This document shows, one piece after another, positions 15,011 through 37,056 of a stretch of DNA of 39,917 nt. Numbering within the stretch: the stretch's first letter is position 1; each line of letters starts with the position of its first letter. The stretch is from Eubacteriales bacterium (GTDB lineage: Bacteria; Bacillota; Clostridia; Lachnospirales; Lachnospiraceae): positions 1 through 39,917 of the forward strand of contig JAUNGB010000048.1 of assembly GCA_030524715.1 (NCBI GenBank), given 5' to 3'. Below the pieces are notes generated by a model, which was given only the letters and a program-made list of their open reading frames with translations, was not told the DNA's origin and ran no database searches. The position numbers and the translations under genes were made by a program.

Positions 15011-16018
15011 TTAATTTCTGACAACTATGTCAATTCTGCAAAGCCAAACGCTCCGCTGCAAGCCTTTATTTGTTCTGGCTGACTGGCGGTTGTTCATGAT
15101 TTTTAATCTGCGTTTTAACCATGTTGCTGAATCAATCACGCCCTCATGAGGTGCTAAAACAACATCTCTGTCCACCAGATCATACTGTTTCTTCTTTTTC
15201 TTATCCCCGTTACAGCCTTTGTAGAGGAAAATACCATTCGTCCCAATATAGTCAGACGCCGGATTCACCAAATTAGAACCCTGACTTTCAAAGAAGTTGT
15301 AAACGTCTATATCCGCCTTAACATACACCGGATTGCGCACAATTTCACTGATTCTCGCCGTACACTATGCAGCTCCACGCTTTTGGGTAAATCCTCTGTT
15401 TAAAAGCTCTCGCATGACTGCTCCCAGCGTCATATCCGGTTCCGAATAAAGCCGGTAAATCAGTTTGATCTGCTCCATTTCCACTGGCTCCGGTACAAAA
15501 CGTGATGTGTGAATCCCGTTAATAATGGCATCTTCCAACTGGAATCCATAAGGAACACGCCCACCCATGTAATAGCCTTTCTGGCTCTTGGTATAATACG
15601 CATCTGCGACACGCTTCTGAATGGTTTCCCTTTCAAGCTGCGCAAATACAATACTGATATTGAGCATTGCATTACCGATTGGCGTGGACGTATCAAACTT
15701 CTCCGTAGAGGATACAAATTCTACATGGTGTTCCTGAAAAATTTCCATCATGTTGGAAAAATCAAGAATAGACCGGCTGATTCTGTCCAGTTTATAGACG
15801 ATTACACGTTTTATCTTTCCGGCTCTGATATCCTGCATCATTTGCATAAATGCCGGACGGTTGGTATTTTTTCCGCTAAAACCTTTGTCAATGTACGTTT
15901 CATAATCACCGCCGCGAGTTTCATACTTACAAAACTCAAGCTGGTTCTCAATGGAAATACTATCCTGCTTATCAAGTGACTGTCTTGCGTATAGCGCATC
16001 TATCGGATACATCATCAT
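15011..16018 (-). pseudogene. serine recombinase with an in-frame amber codon
   Basis: The resolvase domain begins YARQSLDKQDSISIENQ, with catalytic Ser14, and includes VIVYKLDRISRSILDF and FAQLERETIQKRV. The recombinase domain starts at about residue 145. At 15365-15367 a TAG interrupts the reading frame after RGAA. The same frame continues with CTARISEIVRNPVYVKADID, the next conserved part of the family, so one TGG-to-TAG change is the simplest explanation. The 3' part also ends early (about 335 codons in total; large serine recombinases usually have 500 or more). It would be inactive unless the amber is read through. A TnpW-like gene lies 92 bp upstream. Confidence 0.85.
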
Positions 16019-26335: not shown

Positions 26336-27237
26336 CTATTGTCTTGGTTTCTCACATTTCCCGCAGTCAGAACAACCATTGCATATCAGACGACTTCCGC
26401 ATTTTTCGCAATTCTGCCGATAATGCGGCACATATAGATTTTCTTTCGGAATATCCATCCCAAAACCATCTGCCAGCTTCCATCTGATCGGCTTTCCGAC
26501 ATAGCCCATGCCGGATTTATATGCCATCTCACTTTGAACCTGCTTTTTAGGCAAATGATACCTTTTCCCGTCTTTGATAAACACGCTCCCCGTTTCAATA
26601 AAGCAAAACGTAATATTGTACGCAACGCACTCTGAGCGCAGGCTTTTTACCCAGTCAAAATCACACGGCCTTGCACCGTCATAATTTTCGCCGCCGCAGA
26701 TCACCTGCTCAATCTGACCGCTTTTCAGATATTTTTCAATGCTGACCGGCCCGATGAACAGAGCTCACATAATCCCTTTATGCTTGAATGGCAGAGAGAG
26801 CAAAATTGGGATGCGCTCATCAGCCCTCCGCTGATTCTCACAGGTAACGTTGAGCATAATATTTTCCCAGCCTTCGCCCCAGTCCTCCGGCAGACAATCC
26901 TTTACCCTCTGTGGCCTTTTCGTCAGCAGGAAAAATTTCACATCCGGGCGCTGGCGCATGATCTCCCATGCTTCCTCACGCCACCCGTCAGCTTCTTCCA
27001 AAAAGAAATCGGAGGTCATACAAACGCGGATCAGTTCACCGCTTTGGATTTTATAAGAGCCATTCCTGTTCTTTTGCAGAGGATACGAAACCCCGCTTTT
27101 GTCCGGTAAATATCAGCACCATTGCGATCCCTCATACCGTCAAGGAAATACATATAACAATGCTGACAGCCCTCGCTGCATTTTACACAGCCATGCCAGG
27201 GATTCCATATATCATACACAGGATACCTCCTGCTCAC
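26336..27237 (-). pseudogene. DUF5131 (phage Gp37/Gp68-like) radical-SAM-type gene with two lesions
   Basis: The N terminus YDIWNPWHGCVKCSEGCQHCY carries the CX3CX2C cluster motif of the DUF5131 family. Near 27085 one base is missing: the frame continues as ILCKRTGMAL, whereas the neighbouring frame reads YPLQKNRNGSYKIQSGELIR and continues the family sequence. At 26765-26767 an in-frame TGA separates KHKGIM from ALFIGPVSIE. The C terminus is a Cys-rich zinc-ribbon-like segment (CEKCGSRLICNGCSDCGKC). The start overlaps the sirtuin gene by 26 bp, so it was the last gene of that operon. It is probably inactive now. Confidence 0.8.
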
Positions 27238-28102
27238 GCAGTTTTGATAATGCGCTTCCTATATCGCTGTCAATACAGATTGACTTCTTTTCTATCTCAT
27301 GTGGGCAAACGGCTTCTCCGTAATTGATGCAGGCATAAACCGCCCGTGGATTTTCCGCCGTCATTCTCCAAAATGGATATTTGATAATTCCCGGAGTGTT
27401 ATATCCCACACCAAGCTCCAGAAACAAGATACGCATATTCTGATGCCTGCGGAGAAAAAGCTGATACCGCTCTGCCGCCTCATGCCAGCCCTCATCCTCC
27501 ACGAATTTATCATCCGAGCGAAGATTCATGGTCAGCGGCTTTCCGCAATGCGGGCAGACCGGAAGAAGTTCTGTGGGAATCCGCATCTCTTTCTGCTGTT
27601 CCATCATGTTTCGGATAATTTCTTCATTCTCAAAGGCTTCCTGACAGCAGGGTTCGCTGCACTGGAACAGGCCATAATCTCCCTGCGTGTAAAACAGCCG
27701 CTTTTTATCAAATCCAGCTTTCTGGAAGCAGTGATCCACATTGGTCGTGATAACAAAATAGTCTTTGTCTTTCACAAGTTCAAACAGGTTGTCATACACC
27801 GGCTTCGGTGCATCCATATAACGGTTGACATAGATGTACCGGCTCCAATACGCCCAGTGTTCCTCCGGCGTATCATACGGGTAAAAGCCGCCGGAATACA
27901 TATCATGAAATACGTACTTTGCTTCAAAATCGGAAAAATACTGTTTGAACCGCTCCCCATTATAGACAAACCCTGCGGATGTGGATAATCCCGCTCCGGC
28001 TCCGATGACAACCGCATCCGCCTGTGCCAGTCCCTTTTTCAGCCGTTCAAGCTGCTCCGAGAAGTTTTTTGTAGATTTTGTAATCCTCATCTTTGAAAAC
28101 AT
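27212..28102 (-). CDS. macrodomain-linked sirtuin (class M, SirTM-like)
   Basis: A 296-residue Sir2-fold protein. The NAD site is VVIGAGAGLSTSAGF (about residues 31-45), followed by TTNVDH and then TQGDYGLFQC. In ordinary sirtuins a catalytic His stands where this protein has Gln. That Gln, with the Asn of TTNVD, is characteristic of SirTM enzymes, which mono-ADP-ribosylate proteins rather than deacylate them. A zinc ribbon is visible (LFQCSEPCC and CPHCG). The start at 28102 is fixed by GGAGGTG 8 bp upstream. It overlaps the macrodomain gene by 56 bp. Unlike the described Staphylococcus and Streptococcus loci, no GcvH-L or LplA gene is present, so the target protein here is open. Confidence 0.88.
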   Translation of the reverse strand: MFSKMRITKSTKNFSEQLERLKKGLAQADAVVIGAGAGLSTSAGFVYNGERFKQYFSDFEAKYVFHDMYSGGFYPYDTPEEHWAYWSRYIYVNRYMDAPKPVYDNLFELVKDKDYFVITTNVDHCFQKAGFDKKRLFYTQGDYGLFQCSEPCCQEAFENEEIIRNMMEQQKEMRIPTELLPVCPHCGKPLTMNLRSDDKFVEDEGWHEAAERYQLFLRRHQNMRILFLELGVGYNTPGIIKYPFWRMTAENPRAVYACINYGEAVCPHEIEKKSICIDSDIGSALSKLREQEVSCV

Positions 28103-28826
28103 TGAAAATCACCTCCATATTGGTATGCGTCTCCTGCCGGTATTCCTTTACCGTCTGAACAGCAATCTTTGCCGCTTTGTCATTGGGGAAATGAAACTCA
28201 CCCGTGGAAATACAGCAGAACGCAATGCTTGTTACGTTATGTTTCTCTGCCAGTTCCAAACAGGAGCGGTAGCAGGACGCCAGCAGTTCCTGGTCTTTTT
28301 TCGTCAGCCAGCCCTGCACTACAGGCCCGACCGTATGCAGGACATAGCGGCAGGGCAGATTATAAGCTGGCGTGATTTTTGCTGCACCCGTTGATTCCTC
28401 ATGCCCCTGCTTCTTCATCAGCGCCGCACAAGCCGCCCGAAGCTGCACCCCTGAAAAGGTATGGATCGCATTGTCGATGCAGCCGTGGCAGGGACAGAAG
28501 CAGCCCAACATCTGGCTGTTCGCCGCATTAACAATCGCATCACAGGCAAGCGTTGTAATATCTCCCCGCCAGAGATAAATACCTTCCTGCACAGGAGACA
28601 GACTGGAAAGCTCCGTAATTCCTTTGCACCGGAGTTCTTCCTGCAAATAGGCATCCTGCACCTCTAAAAATTCATTGCTGACCGGCTCCGGCATACGGAT
28701 ATTCAAGAGGGAACGCAGCAGCCTCTTTTGTTCCGGTTCCCCTTCCGGTATTTCTATATTGTGATACCTCGACTGCTCTGAGAACAGTTCTTTGATTAAA
28801 AATAATCTTCGCTCTGACTGATTCAT
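28047..28826 (-). CDS. zinc-type macrodomain ADP-ribosyl hydrolase
   Basis: A 259-residue protein with a helical N-terminal extension (about 1-80) and a macrodomain. The ADP-ribose loop is CDAIVNAANSQMLGCF, followed directly by CPCHGCIDNAIH, the Cys/His-rich zinc motif of the SauMacro/SpyMacro class. The later IAFCCISTGEFHFPNDKAA forms the phosphate-binding loop. This class removes ADP-ribose added by SirTM, so with its neighbour it makes a reversible modification pair. It has GGAGGCGG before its ATG and lies 12 bp after a nitroreductase gene. Confidence 0.9.
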   Translation of the reverse strand: MNQSERRLFLIKELFSEQSRYHNIEIPEGEPEQKRLLRSLLNIRMPEPVSNEFLEVQDAYLQEELRCKGITELSSLSPVQEGIYLWRGDITTLACDAIVNAANSQMLGCFCPCHGCIDNAIHTFSGVQLRAACAALMKKQGHEESTGAAKITPAYNLPCRYVLHTVGPVVQGWLTKKDQELLASCYRSCLELAEKHNVTSIAFCCISTGEFHFPNDKAAKIAVQTVKEYRQETHTNMEVIFNVFKDEDYKIYKKLLGAA

Positions 28827-28838
28827 GTAACCGCCTCC

Positions 28839-29438
28839 TTACTGCTCCGGAACCTCATTGAAAAAGCAGGTTTCCTCAAGCGGCTTCCTATGGCACCCCA
28901 GCTTTGTATTCGGTACAAAATCTTCTGCCGGATAGCCAATATAGAGCATACATACAGGCTGCCAGCTTTCGGGCAGATGAAGCAGTTCCCTCGCTTTTTC
29001 CTCGTCAAAGTAGCTGATCCACACACTTCCCAAGTCAAGGCTTGCCGCCTCCAGCATCATGTGGGTGGCAACAATCGTTGCGTCCGTAGCGCCGCTGCTT
29101 TTGCCGCTTTGCGGATGTGTCCAGCAGGCAGTCTTATCGTAGGTCACAAACAGAACAAGGGGAGCGCCATAGTAGAAATTGAGCTTTTTATGCTTCTTGT
29201 CATCACATTCCTCTGCCAGATCCACATACTTCTGATCGTAACCAAAGGAACAAAATTCTTTTACTTTTTCCAGACTTTCCGGCGTATTCAGCACCAGGAT
29301 TCTCTGCGGCTGTCCATTGACTGCCGTAGGCGACCACCTTCCGGCCTCCAGAATTTTCTGTACTTTTTCTTCCTCCACCGGCGTCTGTGCAAACTTCCGC
29401 ACCGTGATGCGCTTTTTGGAAATCTCCATAAAATCCAT
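28839..29438 (-). CDS. nitroreductase-family FMN flavoprotein
   Basis: A 199-residue single-domain nitroreductase. The FMN-binding start is ISKKRITVRKFAQTPVEEEKVQKILEAGRWSPTAVNGQP, and the later HMMLEAASLDLGSVWIS and PVCMLYIGYPA are family hallmarks. Members reduce nitro compounds, quinones or enones using NAD(P)H. It is adjacent to a second, ferredoxin-fused nitroreductase and upstream of the macrodomain gene, so a role in electrophile or redox stress fits. It could alternatively process a small-molecule or peptide product of this operon. Confidence 0.88.
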   Translation of the reverse strand: MDFMEISKKRITVRKFAQTPVEEEKVQKILEAGRWSPTAVNGQPQRILVLNTPESLEKVKEFCSFGYDQKYVDLAEECDDKKHKKLNFYYGAPLVLFVTYDKTACWTHPQSGKSSGATDATIVATHMMLEAASLDLGSVWISYFDEEKARELLHLPESWQPVCMLYIGYPAEDFVPNTKLGCHRKPLEETCFFNEVPEQ

Positions 29439-29450
29439 AGAACAGCCCTC

Positions 29451-30329
29451 CTATCGTCTGTCTGTATAACGGTGGATTTTTCTCCCCCTGTCCTTTTGTA
29501 CGCCCCTCGCATACCGGATTTCAGGGTAGCCAAATCCAACGATCAGTTTCATATAATGATCTTTCGGTATATCCAGCATTTCTCTGGCCTCCGGAGCGAG
29601 TTCCTCCAACACCTCCGCCGGATAACTCATAATCACCGTTCCAAGTCCAAAGGCATTTGCAATCAGCTCGAAATATGCGGTGGCAAGGTTGCAGTTGACT
29701 TTGGAATCCTCCGCCCATTTCCCCGCGCACTTTTCATGAGCGATAAACAGGTGCGGCGCACCGCAGAACAGCAGGTCATCCTTCCTCACAGTCTGTTCTG
29801 ACTGCTTCATTTTCCCGTAATAAAAGTCGCTGAAGCTGTGCGTATAAATATGCTTTTTCGCGTCCGCTTCCATTTTTCCATAGGCAGACTGCCAGATTTC
29901 CCTGACACGCTCCTTATCATCAACAACCGTGTATTCCACATTGCAGGAATTTCCCCCTGTCGGAGCAGCCGACATTGCCTCTAAAATCCTGCTGATAACC
30001 TGCGGGTCTACATTTTTGTCCAAGTACCGGCGGCAGGAACGGCGGTTTTCAATGAGACGCTCCATATAGCTTCCCATCTCCGGCGGGGGAGGCGGAAGAG
30101 AGTCCTCCGGCTTTTTATCAAAAATGGAGATTGCACCCTGGGGACATACCGCAAGGCAATGCTGGCACTTCCAACAGCCGCGCCATCCAAAGCGCTCAAA
30201 CTCCTGCATTTCCGGGTATCCGTCTTTTCCAAAGCGGAGTACCATGCCGGAACAGGTATTGATACAGTTTCCGCATTTGATACATTTCTCCTTATCCAGG
30301 CTGAAATGTGTTTTCTGTTCTGCTCCCAT
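29451..30329 (-). CDS. 2[4Fe-4S] ferredoxin-nitroreductase fusion
   Basis: A 292-residue protein. The N-terminal ferredoxin domain has two cluster motifs (CIKCGNCINTC and CWKCQHCLAVCPQGAI). A Pro-rich linker (about residues 84-89) leads into a nitroreductase domain (RRSCRRYLDKNVDPQVISRILEAMSAAPTGGNSCN; later FGLGTVIMSYPAEVLEEL). The design passes electrons from ferredoxin-type donors to FMN. The frame is open to 30392, but GGAGGATGTCTT before the ATG at 30329 sets the start. It lies between the oxidoreductase and second nitroreductase genes. Confidence 0.9.
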   Translation of the reverse strand: MGAEQKTHFSLDKEKCIKCGNCINTCSGMVLRFGKDGYPEMQEFERFGWRGCWKCQHCLAVCPQGAISIFDKKPEDSLPPPPPEMGSYMERLIENRRSCRRYLDKNVDPQVISRILEAMSAAPTGGNSCNVEYTVVDDKERVREIWQSAYGKMEADAKKHIYTHSFSDFYYGKMKQSEQTVRKDDLLFCGAPHLFIAHEKCAGKWAEDSKVNCNLATAYFELIANAFGLGTVIMSYPAEVLEELAPEAREMLDIPKDHYMKLIVGFGYPEIRYARGVQKDRGRKIHRYTDRR

Positions 30330-30396
30330 AAGACATCCTCCTTCCGGTTCATTCTGCTGCAGATTCTTGTGTAACTCTCTGCATACTTGCATTCGT

Positions 30397-31359
30397 TCAG
30401 ATTTTCACGACAATCTTTCCGTCCACTCTGTGATGATCCATATCCGAAAGCGCCTGCGCAATATCTTCAAAAGAATAAACCGCTCCCACTTCCGGTTTAA
30501 GCTGATAATTTACAAGAAAAGAAAAAATATCTTCCATAATCTTCTGTGTAGGATAGTTGGAGAAAAATCCGGTCAGGTACACGCCGTTTGGAATCTCCTT
30601 AATCGGGTCAAAACCATCCAGGGCATACACGCCGCCTAAAATCCCGGTATTGCAGACAATACCGCCTGCTTCCACACATTTCAATGTATCCCGGAGCGTT
30701 TTCGGGCCGACCAGTTCTAATGCCTTCGTTACACCCCGGAGCGTTCCTGCAAGGGTTCCAGTATCCAGAACCGCCTCGTCTGCGTCTCTCAAAAGAACCA
30801 TCTTGCTTTCCCGGTGGGTCGTTGCAATCACATGACAGCCCATCGCCTTTGCAAGCTGTATCGCCGCATATCCCAGCGCACAGGTGCCGCCACGAACCAA
30901 CAACGTATCTTCCTTTTTCAGATGCAGACACTCAAACAGGGAACCCCATGCTGTAAAATACGTTTCCGGAATCGCCGCCATTTCCGTCCATGATAAATCA
31001 GACTGGACAGAAAACACATGGTCTGCCGGAAGCAGTGCATACTCCGCATAGCTACCGTGAAAGCTGCGCCCCATTCCGCCCATGAGAGCGACCACTTTCT
31101 CACCTTTCTTGAAATGACTGTCAGACGGATCGGCAATCTCGCCCGCACATTCTATCCCCGGAATAATCGGTTTATTGATGTAATCCGCCCGAATTTCATT
31201 TAAACGGAGAATCTGCTCCGAGTGGTTCAGGCCAAAGGCTTTCACATGCACCAGCACCCATCCGGAACGAATCTGCGGAACGGAAACCGTTGTCAAACGT
31301 ACCTGTTCTGCAGGAGTAGGCTCTGATAAAATGACTGCTTTCATTGTTTTCGGAATCAT
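30397..31359 (-). CDS. quinone-oxidoreductase-like MDR-family enzyme
   Basis: A 320-residue zinc-independent medium-chain dehydrogenase/reductase. The N-terminal GroES-like domain includes VHVKAFGLNHSEQILRL and PGIECAGEI. The NADPH-binding Rossmann domain has LLVRGGTCALGYAAIQLAKAMGC. No zinc ligand set is visible, which fits the quinone oxidoreductase branch. The ATG overlaps the radical SAM stop by 4 bp (ATGA), so translation is coupled. Such enzymes reduce quinones or reactive enals. Confidence 0.9.
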   Translation of the reverse strand: MIPKTMKAVILSEPTPAEQVRLTTVSVPQIRSGWVLVHVKAFGLNHSEQILRLNEIRADYINKPIIPGIECAGEIADPSDSHFKKGEKVVALMGGMGRSFHGSYAEYALLPADHVFSVQSDLSWTEMAAIPETYFTAWGSLFECLHLKKEDTLLVRGGTCALGYAAIQLAKAMGCHVIATTHRESKMVLLRDADEAVLDTGTLAGTLRGVTKALELVGPKTLRDTLKCVEAGGIVCNTGILGGVYALDGFDPIKEIPNGVYLTGFFSNYPTQKIMEDIFSFLVNYQLKPEVGAVYSFEDIAQALSDMDHHRVDGKIVVKI

Positions 31360-32402
31360 ACCGCTGCCTCCTTTACTTCATGCCAACACTGTGGGTCTGC
31401 CGCATAGAAATTACCGTCCTTGCCGCTTGCCACAGCCGGACATCCACGGCACCACGCCAGCAGCTCGCATTTTGCGCATTTCTCAAATTTGCTGTAATCC
31501 CGGTATCTTTCCATCTGGCATACCCACACATCGGCAATCCGATCCTCAAATACATTACCGACCTTGCTGTTTTGCACCCGGCGGCAGGCGTAAATGTCTC
31601 CGGTTGGCAGAATCGTCAAATGACAGTTTCCGCAGTTGCAGCCGCCATAAATCATCCCTTCCTCCACCGCTTCGGGAATTTTGAAAGCGCCGGTTTCATA
31701 CTCATACAGCGTCCACAAGTGATCTTTTTTATTAAAATAGGTTTCACAGCCTGCGGCTTCATACGCCCGGAATTTATGATCGCAGGTCTCCAGCAGCTTC
31801 CGGTAGCGCATAGGTTCGATACCAACATCTTTTTCCTCGCTGGTGGGGCAGTACCGGGCAAAGGCGAACACATTCGCCCCAGCCGCTACTACCGCGTCAA
31901 TAATGTCCGGTACTTCATCGATGTTCGTACCGGATACCGTGGTCATAATCACACTTCTGATTCCGGCTCGGTTAATACAACCAATTTTCTCAAGGGTAAC
32001 GTCGAAGCCCCCCGGTTTGCGGAACCAATCGTGGGTTTCCCGCATCCCGTCAAGGGAAAGCTGGTATTTCTGGCAGCCGTACTCTTTCAGCCTCCGGCAT
32101 ACCTCATCATTCAGATGAAAAGGATTTCCGAGAATCGTAAACGGAATGTCATGTTCTTTCATCAGTCCAAGCAACTTCCAGAAATCCGGGTGAAGAATCG
32201 GATCGCCTCCAGTGATATAGAAGTAGGGCAGCCGGTCATAGACCTCACAGAAGTCCAGGCAGTTATAAAATGTGTCCTGCATTTGCTCCCAGTTCATCGC
32301 ATCCAGCTTTTTGCAGTTATCTTCGGAAAAAATGTAACAATGCTTACAACGCTGGTCGCATTCGTCTGTAATGTGCCATTGAAAAGAAAAATACTGTTTC
32401 AT
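31356..32402 (-). CDS. radical SAM/SPASM peptide maturase, ACGX-system type
   Basis: A 348-residue radical SAM enzyme. CDQRCKHC (about residues 15-22) is the CX3CX2C cluster site, and YFYITGGDPILHPDF is the SAM-binding GGE-like motif. The C-terminal SPASM region holds the Cys of CGNCHLTILPTGDIYACRR, CAKCELLAWCRGC and the late DPQCW. These enzymes install crosslinks or epimerisations on ribosomal peptides. The upstream Cys-rich repeat peptide is the obvious substrate. From memory, NCBI/TIGRFAM models name such a pair 'radical SAM/SPASM protein, ACGX system' with 'ACGX-repeat peptide'; this match was not tested. Confidence 0.88.
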   Translation of the reverse strand: MKQYFSFQWHITDECDQRCKHCYIFSEDNCKKLDAMNWEQMQDTFYNCLDFCEVYDRLPYFYITGGDPILHPDFWKLLGLMKEHDIPFTILGNPFHLNDEVCRRLKEYGCQKYQLSLDGMRETHDWFRKPGGFDVTLEKIGCINRAGIRSVIMTTVSGTNIDEVPDIIDAVVAAGANVFAFARYCPTSEEKDVGIEPMRYRKLLETCDHKFRAYEAAGCETYFNKKDHLWTLYEYETGAFKIPEAVEEGMIYGGCNCGNCHLTILPTGDIYACRRVQNSKVGNVFEDRIADVWVCQMERYRDYSKFEKCAKCELLAWCRGCPAVASGKDGNFYAADPQCWHEVKEAAV

Positions 32403-32438
32403 CGTCTTTGACCTCGCTTTTGCTATTTTTATGTAAAA

Positions 32439-32451
32439 TCGGTTAAACCGA
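32439..32451. promoter_or_regulatory. 13-bp palindrome ahead of the radical SAM gene
   Basis: TCGGTT-A-AACCGA is a perfect dyad in the peptide-maturase gap, next to AGTAAC. It may be a further operator, since it shares GGTTA with the operon's other sites, or a small mRNA element. Confidence 0.3.
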
Positions 32452-32467
32452 GTAACATTTCAAATGC

Positions 32468-32494
32468 TCCCGGCAGGAGCGTCCCCTGCCGGGA
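32468..32494 (-). terminator. hairpin between precursor peptide and maturase genes (attenuator)
   Basis: A stem of about 10 bp (CCCGGCAGG/CCTGCCGGG plus a T-A pair) lies 25 bp after the peptide stop. No long U-run follows, so it is probably a leaky terminator or an mRNA-stabilising hairpin that lets the peptide be made in excess over the enzyme. Confidence 0.55.
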
Positions 32495-32519
32495 ACGGAG
32501 TTAGTGGGAATGGAACGAT

Positions 32520-32792
32520 TTACTTATCGCCAGCACCGCAAGCCGCAGGCTGTCTCCGCTCCGCTTCGGTCGGTGCAGAACCAGCGTCCCCCGGACGCTG
32601 TGCACCTTCCGGCTTATCAGCACCACCACAGGCAGCAGGAGCTTCGGCAGGCTTATCCCCAGCACCGCAGGCGGAACCGCAGGCAGCGGGCTTTTCAGCT
32701 AGCTTGTCAGATGCTCCGCAGGCTGTGCCGCAAGCCGCGGCAGGTGCTGCCTCGTGTTTCTTGTTCCATCCAAACAGATTAGAAAGTGCCAT
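32520..32792 (-). CDS. ACGX-repeat Cys-rich peptide, predicted RiPP precursor
   Basis: A 90-residue peptide with a short leader-like start (MALSNLFGWNKKHEAAPA) and six Ala-Cys-Gly units, with Cys at 21, 25, 38, 42, 55 and 85. The repeats come as ACGTACGA, ACGSACGA, ACGG and ACGA, separated by DK-x-AEKPA-like spacers. The gene is markedly GC-rich compared with its neighbours. A near-ideal ribosome binding site (AAGGAGG) precedes the ATG. Position ahead of a SPASM enzyme makes it the predicted substrate. Residues about 62-82 lack ACG units and correspond to a palindromic DNA insert. The product and its role are unknown. Confidence 0.85.
   Translation of the reverse strand: MALSNLFGWNKKHEAAPAAACGTACGASDKLAEKPAACGSACGAGDKPAEAPAACGGADKPEGAQRPGDAGSAPTEAERRQPAACGAGDK
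32572..32606. repeat. palindrome inside the peptide gene
   Basis: CAGCGTCC-CCC-GGACGCTG forms a perfect 8-bp stem, extended by GGTGCA/TGCACC after a 4-nt bulge. It coincides with the part of the precursor where the ACGX rhythm is lost, suggesting an inserted REP-like element. Confidence 0.5.
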
Positions 32793-32846
32793 AGTTTTGT
32801 ACCTCCTTACAATATTCAGAGAGCTGTCTGCCTCTCTGTACTTATT

Positions 32847-32914
32847 ATTTTACGGATATTTTTTTCTCCCACAAGTACGCACTTTTTTATAACCCGGGTT
32901 ACCTTTTTGTAACC
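32847..32914 (-). promoter_or_regulatory. promoter and operators of the ACGX-SirTM operon
   Basis: On the minus strand TTGTGG and TAAAAT are separated by 16 bp. Directly upstream lies a 24-bp block (32871-32894) identical to one ahead of the MBL-like gene. Then comes the dyad GGTTACCTTTTTGTAACC (32897-32914), also identical in both. The overlapping TAACCCGGGTTA (32891-32902) adds a third half site. Sites upstream of the -35 favour activation. Confidence 0.75.
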
Positions 32915-33035: not shown

Positions 33036-34016
33036 TTATTCTTCCTCTGCCGGGAATAAATAACCCGCACTCATATCCAGATAGTTTTCACCCGTATAAT
33101 CAGGGAAGGCTTCTTTCATGGCAGCTGTAAATTCTGCGGCGTCAGAACTGTTTTCCACCAGTTCCTTTGCTTTCATAACATAATTGATTTTTTCCGCCAC
33201 AGCATCCTGCCCTTCCGGTGCGGAATGAGCAGACAAAATCATATCATATCCTGCATCCTGATAACTTTTTAAAATCTCAAGCATAGAATCCATCTGCTCC
33301 GTGCTTGTAAGGATAGAGTGGCTCGTCTTCCCCAGCATATGGGTATAAATTACATTCAAAGCCGGAATTTCAAGGTCATATGTTTCCCCGCGGTCAATCA
33401 GGTTAAACTCTACTCCGCCTGCTGTTACGGTGCCGGAAACCACGTTATTAATCTGCGCCATTTCATCCCCGCCGTGGAAATCATCGCCAAATGTTTCATA
33501 AAGGCCCTGTGTCGTAGCAAAGGTAGTGCCGCTTTCAATGGAATCTTTTGCCCCCTGCGTTCCGTAAACTGTCATTCCTTCCACATAACTTACGCCGGTT
33601 GCATGGTCACACAGGAAAAGATCATTCATCGGTTTGCCAATTTCAGCAATATAAGCCTTCCACTCCTCCAGTCCATCTGTAAATCCCGGAAGTTCGATTC
33701 CAACCAATGCATCGCCGCTTTCCACAATATAAGCTTCATCTCCCAAAGCATCCCCCGTTGCATAAGCATGAAGCTTTATTTCCCCATAGTCATACACTGT
33801 AACGGCTCCAGTATTCAGGCTGACCTCGCTGGTCTCAGGCATATCCCCATTGTCTTCCCCTGAAACGCCTTCTGTTTCCGCGTCCAGTTCACCTGCTTCA
33901 CTCTGTACGGCTACCGTTTCCGGCTCCGAATTTTCCGCCGCCTGGATAGCCCCTACCGAAAAAAGTGATACTGCCATGCTTCCCATCAGTAAAATTGCCA
34001 ATCTTTTTTTCATCAT
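33036..34016 (-). CDS. secreted protein, possibly degenerate metallo-beta-lactamase fold
   Basis: A 326-residue exported protein with a clear signal peptide (MMKKRLAILLMGSMAVSLFSVG, cleavage near IQA-AEN) and an acidic low-complexity stretch (about 25-60). The mature part has elements that resemble a metallo-beta-lactamase fold (VGIELPG, LFLCDHATG, VIYTHMLGKTSHS, MILSAHSAPEG), but the HxHxDH motif is absent. I therefore treat the fold as tentative. The start is set by GGAGGATTTTTCA before the ATG pair. Its promoter has the same operator blocks as the peptide operon, so it is probably co-regulated. Confidence 0.6.
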   Translation of the reverse strand: MMKKRLAILLMGSMAVSLFSVGAIQAAENSEPETVAVQSEAGELDAETEGVSGEDNGDMPETSEVSLNTGAVTVYDYGEIKLHAYATGDALGDEAYIVESGDALVGIELPGFTDGLEEWKAYIAEIGKPMNDLFLCDHATGVSYVEGMTVYGTQGAKDSIESGTTFATTQGLYETFGDDFHGGDEMAQINNVVSGTVTAGGVEFNLIDRGETYDLEIPALNVIYTHMLGKTSHSILTSTEQMDSMLEILKSYQDAGYDMILSAHSAPEGQDAVAEKINYVMKAKELVENSSDAAEFTAAMKEAFPDYTGENYLDMSAGYLFPAEEE

Positions 34017-34070
34017 TGAAAAATCCTCCATTCTTGTATTCAGTGAGTTTTTTTGCTCCCTGTATCTGTT

Positions 34071-34157
34071 ATTTTACTGATTTTCTCCACTGCTACAAGT
34101 ACGCACTTTTTTATAACCTGATTACTTTTTTATAACCCAGGTTACCTTTTTGTAACC
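34071..34157 (-). promoter_or_regulatory. promoter and operators of the secreted-protein gene
   Basis: TTGTAG and TAAAAT are separated by 16 bp on the minus strand. The 24-bp block at 34095-34118 and the dyad at 34140-34157 are identical to those at the peptide operon. Here a 19-bp partial duplication (34119-34137, TGATTACTTTTTTATAACC) adds a half site between them. Confidence 0.75.
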
Positions 34158-34284: not shown

Positions 34285-34325
34285 AACATTAAAAAAATAT
34301 GTGTAAAATTGGAGAGGTGAGCAGA

Positions 34326-34649
34326 ATGAAAACCAAAGACGAATTACCAGCTTGTCCGGTGGCAACCACTGTGCAGCTTATAGGGAGTAAATGGAAATTA
34401 TTGATTATGCGTAATCTTCTTGTGCGGCCATGGCGTTTTAATGAACTTCAAAAAAATCTGGAAGGGATCAGCCAAAAGGTATTAACGGATAGTCTGCGCT
34501 CTATGGAAGCAGACGGAATCATAACCCGTACCGTTTACCCCGAAGTTCCGCCCAGAGTAGAATATGCCTTAAGTGAGCTTGGCGAATCCATGCGCCCGAT
34601 TATTTCTGCTATGGAAACATGGGGAACCGAATACAAAAATAGAATCTAA
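34326..34649 (+). CDS. HxlR-family transcriptional regulator with N-terminal Cys
   Basis: A 107-residue winged-helix regulator of the HxlR/DUF24 family (LIGSKWKLLIMRNLL; RFNELQKNLEGISQKVLTDSLRSMEADGIITR). Cys10, in ELPACPVATTVQL, sits where YodB, CatR and HypR of Bacillus have their redox-sensing Cys. Those regulators control nitroreductases and quinone oxidoreductases, the very enzyme types in the neighbouring operon. The start at 34326 follows GGAGAGGTGAG. It is divergent from the secreted-protein gene. Control of the shared operators by this protein is inferred. Confidence 0.88.
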   Translation: MKTKDELPACPVATTVQLIGSKWKLLIMRNLLVRPWRFNELQKNLEGISQKVLTDSLRSMEADGIITRTVYPEVPPRVEYALSELGESMRPIISAMETWGTEYKNRI

Positions 34650-34913: not shown

Positions 34914-35189
34914 TCATATATACTTTCTCCCATTCATCTGAAATACATCATGTCCCTTAATGCTTCTAATCGCCTGCCGCAGATTTCTTGACTTTCCATG
35001 CCTGTGATACGGATGGGATGCCTTATGCTTATGGAAAATAATACAGGATTCCTCTGCCGGATATTCCGTGTTATGCAGATGCCAGTAATGCCCCGTATTT
35101 TTTGATTGGATCGTCACATCATAATCCCCGGTCAGAATAATGTTAAAGTAAGACGCGTCCAGCTTCTGAATCTCACTGGTCTGGAACAT
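34914..35189 (-). CDS. conserved-looking small protein of the ICE backbone, unknown
   Basis: A 91-residue protein starting MFQTSEIQKLDASYFNIIL. It is rich in His, Lys and Tyr in its second half (HKHKASHPYHRHGKS). The start follows GGGAGGGATGGAG and overlaps the end of parB by 17 bp, so it is co-translated with the partition genes. Similar small proteins accompany parAB on clostridial integrative elements, but I know no function. An upstream open extension to 35249 lies inside parB and is not used. Confidence 0.6.
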   Translation of the reverse strand: MFQTSEIQKLDASYFNIILTGDYDVTIQSKNTGHYWHLHNTEYPAEESCIIFHKHKASHPYHRHGKSRNLRQAIRSIKGHDVFQMNGRKYI

Positions 35190-36153
35190 TCTCCATCCCT
35201 CCCTTCCCGAACCATGCCGCCAGCGCTTCTTCAACAATCCCAGCCACATCCGCTGTCTTTATCTCTGCAAAGTACCTCTCATATACATCCGCAGAAAGTT
35301 TTATCGTCCTGCTCCCGGCATTCTTCTTTACTTTTGTTCCGCCCAGTTTCTCCAATACCCTCTCTTCCGTCAGTTCCCCTGCTATCTCCTTCATATATTT
35401 TGCAGTTTTTACATCCAGTTTTATCTTCCCCTGTTCTGCCAGTCCGAACACTTTTTCCTGTTCTTCGCCGGACAGATAGGATAAATCCACTGCCGCCACC
35501 AACGGGAGGGAGCCGTCATCCAGCCGATCCTTTAGTGCCTGATCCAACTGGTTCACCCGGATATATCTGGCAATGTTCCTTCCGGTCATCCCGTACTCTT
35601 CCCCGACTGCATCCCGGCTTTTCAACTTGTGGACATCATGTCCACAAGTCTCCATGTCCGTACCGTTCAGCTTTGCAATCTCTTCCAGAATATCATTCCG
35701 TTTCCCTTGACTGCTTACTTTCTCATACCGCTCTGCCAGCACCGCAGCCTTTTCTGACGGCAGAAGCTCCGCAAATCCCCTCTGTATCACATTCGTCTCA
35801 ATCACATACACATAGGCATCCTGTTCCGTCAGATCCGTCTTCACAATGGCAGGAATCTCCGTCAGACCAGCCATTTTCCCCGCCATCTGCCTGTTATGCC
35901 CGGACAGCATTTCATATCCGTCCGGATGCTGCCATACAATGACCGGAACCAGCACCCCATGCTCCCGGATGCTCTCCACCATATCATCCAGACGGTCCCC
36001 TTCATACAGCCGGAAAGGATGCTTCCGGAATGGGCGGATGCTGTCTATCGGCAGCATCTGTACACCATTTTCCAGAGCAGAAGCCACATCTGCCCCGCCA
36101 AGCAGATCAAGCGCATCATTAAAAATCTTTCTTTTCGGCGCATTAGCCTTCAT
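35173..36153 (-). CDS. parB: ParB-family partition protein
   Basis: A 326-residue ParB/Spo0J-like protein. The N-terminal ParB/Srx domain shows LPIDSIRPFRKHPFRLYEGDRLDDMVESI, GVLVPVIVW and MLSGHNRQMAGK, and is followed by ETNVIQRGFAELLPSEKAA. The helix-turn-helix region is RDAVGEEYGMTGRNIARYIRVN. The start at 36153 follows AAAGGAG, and the gene overlaps parA by 11 bp. Gene order symE-parA-parB-small protein is a typical maintenance module of an integrative element. The gene appears intact although parA is broken. Confidence 0.88.
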   Translation of the reverse strand: MKANAPKRKIFNDALDLLGGADVASALENGVQMLPIDSIRPFRKHPFRLYEGDRLDDMVESIREHGVLVPVIVWQHPDGYEMLSGHNRQMAGKMAGLTEIPAIVKTDLTEQDAYVYVIETNVIQRGFAELLPSEKAAVLAERYEKVSSQGKRNDILEEIAKLNGTDMETCGHDVHKLKSRDAVGEEYGMTGRNIARYIRVNQLDQALKDRLDDGSLPLVAAVDLSYLSGEEQEKVFGLAEQGKIKLDVKTAKYMKEIAGELTEERVLEKLGGTKVKKNAGSRTIKLSADVYERYFAEIKTADVAGIVEEALAAWFGKGGMENVPDQ

Positions 36154-37056
36154 ATGAAACCAACTCCTTTGCAAATTTCCGGTAAGCAATGCCTGCGCTT
36201 GCCTTCGGGCTGTATTCTACAACTGTCTTGCTATAGTAAAGGCTCTCCCCGACCTTCACCGTGTTGGGAATCCTTGTTTCAAATATCCGTATCTGCCCCT
36301 GGAAGCTCTCTGTCACCTGTTCCGTCAGCACCCGGCACAGCTTTGTCCTGGTCTCACACATGGTCAGCAGAATCCCGGCAATCCCCAGTTTTGGATTGAT
36401 CCTCTTTTTGATCTTTCCTACCGTTCTAAGAAAATCCTGCATCCCCATCATTGCCAGAAGCTGCGGATTGACGGTGATAATCACTTCATCAGCCGCCGCC
36501 AGCGCGTTGATCGTCAATATCACCAGCGCCGGGCAGGTATCAATCAAAATACAGTCATACCTCTCACGCAGCGGCTCTAATACCTCTGCCAGAATCTTCT
36601 CAGCCCCCATTTCCAACCGCAGCTTTGCATCCACCACAGACAGGTAAATGGAAGAAGAGATAAAATCCACCCCGTCCTTTGTCCTTATGTACCGCTTCAT
36701 ATCCGGCTTCTTCGTATCCTCAATCTTCGCCATCATCAGATGCCCGATGGTATGCTCCAGCTCCCCGGTATTCTCAATCCCATGATTAGAGCGCCAAAAG
36801 CATTTCTTTCCAGATTCGACTACAATATATTGTTATTATTAATGAAGTCGATATACTAAATATAGTAATTTCGATTGTTGAATTACCCTTTTGACGCTTA
36901 AATCATCCCATAGCACGTTGTCAGATTTGCCTGGCTGTCAAAACCGACAGCCAGCACCTTCTTCCCCATCTTCTTTAAACAATATGCCAGATTAAACGTG
37001 GTTGTGGTCTTGGCACAGCCCCCTTTTTGTGATCCAATAACGTAAATCTTTCCCAT
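36143..37056 (-). pseudogene. parA: ParA ATPase gene split by a MITE-like insertion
   Basis: The 5' part (37056-36912) encodes MGKIYVIGSQKGGCAKTTTTF, a deviant Walker A, and VLAVGFDSQANLTTCYG. The 3' part (from 36783) continues in frame as IENTGELEHTIGHLMMAKIED and on to the Walker B region CILIDTCPALVIL. Between them lie 121 bp of foreign DNA plus one copy of a 7-bp duplication. Removing these 128 bp restores one continuous ORF of normal ParA length (about 260 codons). The Asp usually found before FDSQ is Gly here. A shorter C-terminal product could still start at an internal Met at 36736. Confidence 0.9.
36784..36904. mobile_element. 121-bp MITE-like element in parA
   Basis: The ends GATTAGAGCGCCAAAAG (36784-36800) and CTTTTGACGCTTAAATC (36888-36904) are terminal inverted repeats matching at 14 of 17 positions. 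The element is flanked by a perfect direct repeat ATCCCAT (36777-36783 and 36905-36911). The inside is AT-rich with two smaller dyads (TCGACT/AGTCGA; TACTAAATATAGTA) and no ORF. It must be mobilised by a transposase encoded elsewhere; the family is unknown to me. Confidence 0.85.

Follow-up and report, generated by a model that had tools for sequence, protein, structure and literature searches.

Introduction

Class M sirtuins (SirTM) are known from an extended operon of Staphylococcaceae and Lactobacillales that is composed of GcvH-L, LplA2, SirTM, a zinc macrodomain (Zn-Macro), OYE and LLM (PMC4518038, PMC11490716). In SirTM, QG replaces the HG of other sirtuins (PMC4518038). GcvH-L is ADP-ribosylated on Asp27, and cleavage of Cys-linked ADP-ribose has been reported for Zn-macrodomains as well (PMC11490716). 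Also described, and already named by NCBI, are acgA and acgM, which encode an ACGX-repeat peptide and its radical S-adenosylmethionine (SAM) maturase. In a 39,917-nucleotide stretch of DNA from an Eubacteriales bacterium (contig JAUNGB010000048.1 of assembly GCA_030524715.1, hereafter the window), acgA and acgM open a tightly packed minus-strand gene run, a putative operon, that continues through three reductase genes to a Zn-Macro and a SirTM. The analysis presented here addresses this acg cassette and its relatives, in which the gene set, the promoter element and the active-site motifs are conserved across loci.

Linkage of acgM with SirTM and Zn-Macro

Two samples of acgM loci were pooled. 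The family sample contains every match over the cut-off in 299 genomes of the window's family, which amounts to 37 loci in 36 genomes with the window included. The wider sample came from scanning 84,980 species genomes, where 580 candidates were confirmed and the 80 best were kept; it leans toward loci whose acgM is closely related to that of the window, a bias that is smaller in the family sample. After removal of copies, 113 loci remained; 85 of these, in which the sequence continues for 5.5 kb or more past the acgM start, were used for linkage, and 104, with at least 1.5 kb of upstream sequence, for the regulator. Single loci are cited by their L numbers.

SirTM was found near acgM at 48/85 loci: 33 carry SirTM and Zn-Macro together, 15 carry SirTM alone, one carries Zn-Macro alone and 36 carry neither. 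In the family sample, SirTM is within reach at 21 loci and Zn-Macro at 13, and four of the 16 SirTM misses have less than 3 kb downstream. The 13 linked Zn-Macro genes among these 37 loci compare with approximately 0.1 expected by chance (0.11 when calculated from 131 Zn-Macro loci with genomes averaging 2.9 Mb, both values read by eye; a recount of about 136 loci still gives approximately 0.1). Judged by record titles, SirTM-acgM linkage extends to Lachnospiraceae, Oscillospiraceae, Clostridiaceae and Eubacteriaceae among others. An earlier note on the window would have been refuted by a pairing of the peptide-maturase and SirTM-macrodomain genes that is merely a coincidence in one strain, and the neighborhood survey shows this not to be the case. 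The association of acgM with SirTM and Zn-Macro is modular and is not a product of chance.

Over all 113 loci, SirTM lies downstream of acgM and on the same strand in 52 of the 54 that bear it, and in 42 of these 52 no gap of more than 150 nt is left uncovered by open reading frames (ORFs) of known families. At the level of genomes, Zn-Macro is over the cut-off in 28/36 with acgM and 101/263 others (Fisher p 9e-6; counts read by eye from tables), and the enrichment in acgM genomes is also seen when the two are unlinked (15/23, p 0.015).

In the plasmid collection, acgM occurs in four records from three organisms: Roseburia sp. 831b, Subdoligranulum variabile and the archaeon Methanosphaera sp. 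ISO3-F5. The order on the Roseburia plasmid is a helix-turn-helix (HTH) gene (HxlR by Pfam), acgA, acgM, nitroreductase, a 4Fe-4S PNPOx-like protein, ADP-ribose hydrolase, Sir2 and DUF1848. Plasmid pNP174 of Methanosphaera (L206) carries an HTH gene, a gene for a Cys-rich peptide, an acgM whose annotation is split over two ORFs, and an MDR gene, with BREX genes nearby and SirTM not annotated within the 19 kb viewed. Such plasmid copies, one of them beside BREX genes, would fit a reading of the cassette as chance neighbors or an anti-phage island. The locus survey contradicts this reading, given the excess of linked Zn-Macro over expectation, and we consider it barely credible. When nine window proteins were scanned with PADLOC, no specific match was obtained; the radical SAM enzyme was the sole match, through a viperin similarity that is taken as generic to radical SAM proteins. 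As a result, the defense role that the earlier note had allowed for is unsupported, and it was rejected.

The genes between acgM and the ADP-ribosylation pair vary. After acgM, a nitroreductase is found in 56/85 loci and an MDR reductase in 16/85, with both in one, and a PNPOx-like protein is found in 51/85. In Roseburia, the latter consists of a PNPOx domain and 4Fe-4S ferredoxin motifs. The ferredoxin-nitroreductase of the window, which has close relatives at L047, L059 and L108, may stand in for this PNPOx-ferredoxin.

SirTM and Zn-macrodomain

The window SirTM (27212..28102, minus strand) has its best solved relatives in 5a3a-5a3c (251 bits), and its YTQGDYG aligns with QGEYG of 5a3a, the Streptococcus pyogenes SirTM. 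The QG motif, in place of the catalytic HG, is present in 49/51 linked near-full-length SirTMs and absent from two; with shorter ORFs counted, the figure is 50/55. The macrodomain gene adjoins the SirTM gene in the window, with an overlap of 56 bp, and is linked in 33/48 acgM-linked relatives. By motif and neighborhood, the window SirTM is a predicted ADP-ribosyltransferase of class M. The Zn-macrodomain ADP-ribosyl hydrolase (28047..28826, minus strand) is full length and scores 372 bits with NF003163 (cut-off 272). Its match to 8rsi (278 bits) is also full length and spans both the zinc loop, here CFCPCHGCIDNAIH, and the N-terminal bundle. All 40 of the macrodomain relatives have the zinc loop when a wider pattern is used (27/40 with a narrower pattern).

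The history of the linkage was followed on trees of SirTM and acgM, both of which are quick searches, the latter with long-branch warnings (L055, L071, L074). In the SirTM tree (87 rows), linked and unlinked proteins are mixed. Since the label changes 18 times, four of them forced by well-supported branches, compared to 28.1 when shuffled, linked SirTMs cluster without sharing a single origin. In the best acgM tree, which has 84 rows, the presence of SirTM switches 21 times, with eight changes forced by well-supported branches, compared to 27.2 when shuffled. From the label changes on both trees, SirTM was linked or lost repeatedly. A second, distant sirtuin lineage is also linked to acgM (L054, L061, L062). 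Since the L054 and L061 sirtuins are without the QG motif (EG in L054), this lineage may have a different catalytic position.

Regulator and operator-promoter element

A divergent HxlR gene was found no more than 3.2 kb upstream of the acgM cassette in 86/104 loci. The window copy (34299..34649, plus strand) is an HxlR/DUF24-family regulator that matches PF01638 with 109 bits and the HypR structure 4a5m with 87 bits. The family presents a single conserved Cys column, invariant in 93/93 rows, and an HxlR domain with such a conserved N-terminal Cys marks it as a putative member of the MarR/DUF24 redox regulators. HypR of Bacillus subtilis responds to oxidants, quinones and diamide (PMC6943732). 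By analogy, the cassette HxlR would sense oxidants or electrophiles through its one Cys.

Between HxlR and acgA lies a composite element, roughly GTTAC-N6-GTAAC and then GTAATAAAAAAGTGCGTACTT. Its 10-base core, GTGCGTACTT, was found through 10-mer counts on intergenic regions. There are 94 copies of the core in the 1.73 Mb of loci, where approximately three would be expected in all at equal base frequencies; 90 copies are upstream of acgM, and 86/113 loci have it there. The best TATAAT-like -10 box is 20-21 nt past the core in 79/90 copies, a count made without a shuffled control. Among 30 intergenic regions, the strict form GTTAC-N4-8-GTAAC is present in seven (shuffled mean 0.02), GTA-N5-9-TAC is no commoner than in shuffles, and no exact six-base inverted repeat is common to more than three. 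In the archaeal plasmid copy, GTAAC-N6-GTTAC stands at the equivalent place without the core.

In the window, the element of the acg operon (32873..32914, minus strand) consists of GGTTAC-N6-GTAACC (32897-32914) and then GTTATN6GTGCGTACTT (32873-32893), with a -10-like box TAAAAT (32847..32852, minus strand) 20 nt past the core. Since no good -35 is seen by eye in the window promoter, control of the operon by activation, as for HypR, is suggested. A longer pattern of the element has three matches in the window's genome: before acgA, before a secreted-protein gene, and in a decayed acg copy on another contig, C6. The second of these (34097..34157, minus strand; inverted repeat 34140-34157, core match 34097-34117) precedes a gene with a signal-like N terminus (33036..34031, minus strand), which is likely in the same regulon as the acg operon since it has the same promoter element. 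The secreted protein has no Pfam match and reaches only 20.7 bits with NF040580 (cut-off 430), and its tail is weakly similar to Vmh-type MBL-fold hydrolases. At L129, approximately 1.5 kb upstream of acgM, HxlR and acgA likewise flank the gene of an apparently unrelated protein with a lipoprotein-like signal, which also has a core copy of its own. The divergent HxlR gene, the two operator-promoter elements and the secreted-protein gene extend the earlier note, whose suggestion of a redox role is backed by the regulator and the flavin enzymes.

Alternatively, one HxlR-type stress regulon may gather useful modules (peptide, reductases and ADP-ribosylation pair) without mutual action between them, with the SirTM target elsewhere in the cell. 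In favor of this, each module is found alone, SirTM presence has the 21 changes (eight forced) on the acgM tree, and the element is common to the secreted-protein gene. HxlR is also found beside Zn-Macro loci that are without acgM. These were followed in 41 Zn-Macro loci away from intact acgM, a set that is not random since 40 came from the top of the list, with one more from contig C62 of the window's own genome. SirTM is present in 36 of the 41 and acgM remnants in one (L190); HxlR is upstream in 17, with one HxlR elsewhere in the flanks, and six have the core or something close to it (L173, L175, L190, L191, L192, L194). Against shared regulation as the whole explanation stand the tight packing of SirTM into the acg operon and the repeated linkage, which involves two SirTM lineages. 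On balance, we regard this explanation as somewhat doubtful.

AcgA peptide and proposed AcgM chemistry

The acgA gene (32520..32792, minus strand) encodes an ACGX-repeat precursor of 90 amino acids with six ACG units and the leader MALSNLFGW (TIGR04341, 56.6 bits, cut-off 28). It is followed by acgM (31356..32402, minus strand), which encodes a radical SAM/SPASM maturase (TIGR04340, 610 bits, cut-off 400; PF04055, PF13186). A TIGR04341 precursor beside a TIGR04340 maturase identifies the pair as an ACGX system of ribosomally synthesized and post-translationally modified peptides (RiPPs). Precursors were found in 95/113 loci, a count that is biased to the known pattern since the finder favors the leader motif and ACG repeats. 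Leaders most often begin with MALSNLFGW (28/95). By eye, a typical repeat reads ACG[ST]ACGA[GAS]DKPEEKPA. The residue at +4 was tallied for 628 Cys and is Asp in 313, Cys in 262 and Glu in 6, with Gly directly after the Cys in 613.

The 313 Cys with Asp at +4 stand in a Cys-X3-Asp register that resembles the one in repeats of the PapB/PapA ranthipeptides, in which PapB joins Cys to Asp within CX3D motifs (PMC9413430). Unlike that system, Cys and not Asp is at +4 in the 262 cases above, and AcgM reaches 56 bits on the PapB model, where the cut-off is 340. Since AcgM is under this cut-off, the CX3D register is a lead for its chemistry and not a sign of PapB-type membership. From the spacing of the repeats, AcgM would most likely link Cys to residues four positions on, mainly Asp.

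In many RiPP loci, a short precursor with a leader is encoded along with a radical SAM maturase. AcgA could likewise be an exported bacteriocin or signal, in which case the redox genes would only aid its maturation. Inspection by eye of the families present near acgM in at least four loci showed neither a peptidase nor a transporter at a constant position; an ABC ATPase is present in 17/113 acgM loci and a MATE-like protein in nine, on either strand and approximately 4-5 kb off. As a result, this reading was rejected and is very improbable.

A proposed stress cassette and candidate targets of SirTM

The preferred explanation, which we hold to be evenly poised between right and wrong, is that the acg locus is a modular intracellular thiol/electrophile-stress cassette and a second kind of extended SirTM operon. 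Considering homology and promoter anatomy, the HxlR/HypR-like regulator would sense oxidants or electrophiles via its Cys, bind the operator at approximately -35 and turn the operon on. AcgM would then modify the AcgA repeats from Cys to residue +4, mainly Asp, as the CX3C/CX3D register implies, while the flavin and MDR reductases would clear the stressor or keep the peptide reduced. Finally, SirTM and the Zn-macrodomain would reversibly ADP-ribosylate AcgA or the flavin-ferredoxin reductase, in the manner of lipoyl-GcvH-L in Staphylococcus and Streptococcus.

GcvH-L, the only known SirTM target, cannot serve here since GcvH (PF01597, E 0.001) has no match in the window's genome. The absence of this carrier, as stated in the earlier note, thus holds genome-wide, and a lipoyl-type extended operon was rejected for the same reason. 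PF01597 is over the cut-off in 12/36 acgM genomes; nine of these are short matches of 22-27 bits and three are full length on contigs other than that of acgM, so that full-length GcvH is missing in 33/36. No LplA2 was found among ten cassette ORFs scanned, LplA not having been searched for in the genome.

The candidate targets are AcgA, the PNPOx-ferredoxin or ferredoxin-nitroreductase, and HxlR, and we infer that some cassette product is favored. Within the stress-cassette explanation, AcgA is a somewhat doubtful candidate for the SirTM substrate, and the acidic residues near its Cys would suit ADP-ribosylation, by analogy with GcvH-L. A more specific and less probable form of this idea, which we consider unlikely, is that mature AcgA could be the peptide counterpart of lipoyl-GcvH-L, namely a small redox-active carrier that is cross-linked by a radical SAM enzyme where GcvH-L is lipoylated. 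SirTM would ADP-ribosylate its Asp or Cys residues, and the Zn-macrodomain would free them. If true, this would be, to our knowledge, the first case of a ribosomal peptide that is reversibly ADP-ribosylated, and it would give SirTM its first target besides GcvH-L.

The target may instead be the flavin-ferredoxin reductase (PNPOx-ferredoxin, or in the window the ferredoxin-nitroreductase), with the peptide a separate output of the regulon. PNPOx-ferredoxin is present in 37/48 SirTM-plus and 14/37 SirTM-minus acgM loci (p 0.0003, one of seven families tested), and this raw count therefore points away from the peptide as the target; when independent pairs of the tree are compared, it loses significance (8 pairs, median p 0.45). 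Only AKR reached p <0.05 among the other six families (0/48 vs 4/37, p 0.03, uncorrected). A PNPOx relative lies no more than 3.6 kb upstream of Zn-Macro in 8/41 loci away from intact acgM, and the known extended SirTM operon has flavin enzymes too, OYE and LLM (PMC4518038, PMC11490716). In Staphylococcus, however, the carrier is reported as the sole operon protein modified (PMC4518038), and a reductase target is rather unlikely.

Several observations, in addition to the raw PNPOx count, weigh against the stress-cassette explanation. SirTM is missing at 37/85 acgM loci, and no acgM match of any kind was obtained at 40 of the 41 Zn-Macro loci described above; thus, neither module needs the other. 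A linked Zn-Macro is missing in 15/48 SirTM loci. The divergent HxlR gene is missing in 18/104 loci with upstream sequence (7/37 in the family sample), and the core in 27/113, only six of them for want of sequence (10/37 in the family sample). The peptide of the archaeal relative has CX2E and not CX3D, and in simple counts the AcgA repeats of 43 SirTM-plus and 29 SirTM-minus loci do not clearly differ.

With these points in mind, the cassette narrows the SirTM target candidates to a few small operon products, offers a likely inducer class and an operator for a SirTM-linked system, and suggests an intracellular stress role for ACGX peptides.

Organization of the window locus

The earlier note had described an operon of eight genes. 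The seven from acgA to SirTM are intact at the coordinates it gave, with the same overlaps and gaps; the eighth, a DUF5131 gene (26336..27237, minus strand), is split here over three ORFs (27031-27237, 26765-27019, 26336-26704). PF07505 matches in three separate pieces, the first ORF is in another frame and a stop codon separates the second and third. In six relatives, DUF5131 is a single long ORF, five of which are downstream of SirTM. The gene 3' of SirTM is DUF1848 in the Roseburia plasmid (L205:13001-13942) and long-ORF DUF5131 in L119, L133, L135, L144 and L151.

Three minus-strand reductase genes occupy the middle of the operon. The first encodes an MDR-type reductase (30397..31359; PF08240, PF00107) whose nearest model is the PIG3 quinone oxidoreductase (TIGR02824, 165 bits, below the cut-off of 297), and it overlaps acgM by 4 bp. 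It is followed by a ferredoxin-nitroreductase fusion (29451..30392; PF00881 and 4Fe-4S families) and a nitroreductase-family flavoprotein (28839..29438; PF00881, E 1.4e-33), the latter with a 12-bp gap on either side. The gap between acgA and acgM is 117 nt and holds a strong hairpin (32466..32496, minus strand; folding z -4.9) without a T-run directly after it. Of the 86 acgA-acgM gaps that were folded, 80 have z < -2 when mononucleotide shuffles are used as the control. A transcript boundary may be present at this hairpin.

The window's genome contains a decayed second acg copy (G000:C6:10872-14580; L035, L037-L041, L078). Its acgA is 90% identical (residues 1-58), its HxlR is 97% identical and the promoter element is kept; acgM is reduced to its first part, and the sirtuin and macrodomain are fragmentary. 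A second SirTM/Zn-Macro pair (G000:C62:16615-18592; L036, L079) has 73% DNA identity and its own divergent HxlR gene, with no acgM within the stretch fetched. The flanks of the window locus hold ParB-like and ParA-like genes and a piece of a Ccr-like serine recombinase (35173-36736, 15365-16018). The presence of Par-like genes and a recombinase piece on either side suggests the remains of a mobile element.

Comparison with known systems

As far as our searches of the open literature go, the SirTM/Zn-Macro association, the regulator and the operator are new. No paper combining ACGX with radical SAM was found in the open literature, subscription papers being outside its scope, and the matches listed for ACGX-repeat peptides or acgM contained only the word acgM in unrelated senses. 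In their available parts, the two main SirTM papers are without the term radical SAM, and that of 2024 is without HxlR and nitroreductase.

The cassette resembles the extended SirTM operon in its QG SirTM, in an adjoining or overlapping Zn-Macro with a zinc loop, in having flavin enzymes in the operon and in its proposed link to redox stress. It differs in that the window's genome is without GcvH, a Cys-rich peptide and radical SAM maturase are present, HxlR and its element are added, and nitroreductase, PNPOx-ferredoxin or MDR proteins are found instead of OYE and LLM. Both NCBI models of the ACGX system, TIGR04341 for acgA and TIGR04340 for acgM, are well over cut-off in the window. The names of these models span the peptide and maturase only, to which the regulator, operator and SirTM/Zn-Macro pair are now added. 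The plasmid of Roseburia sp. 831b, as annotated in RefSeq, has the same order of regulator, acgM, hydrolase and Sir2, and the intervening reductases differ.

Like HypR, YodB, CatR and QsrR of the MarR/DUF24 family, the cassette regulator has an HxlR fold with an N-terminal Cys, which aligns with Cys14 of HypR (4a5m). Unlike HypR, whose switch uses a second Cys, the cassette HxlR family has no second conserved Cys column. MarR/DUF24 regulons control nitroreductase-type genes (PMC6943732), as is predicted here; what sets the acg cassette apart from them is that it holds a peptide with its maturase and, often, an ADP-ribosylation pair.

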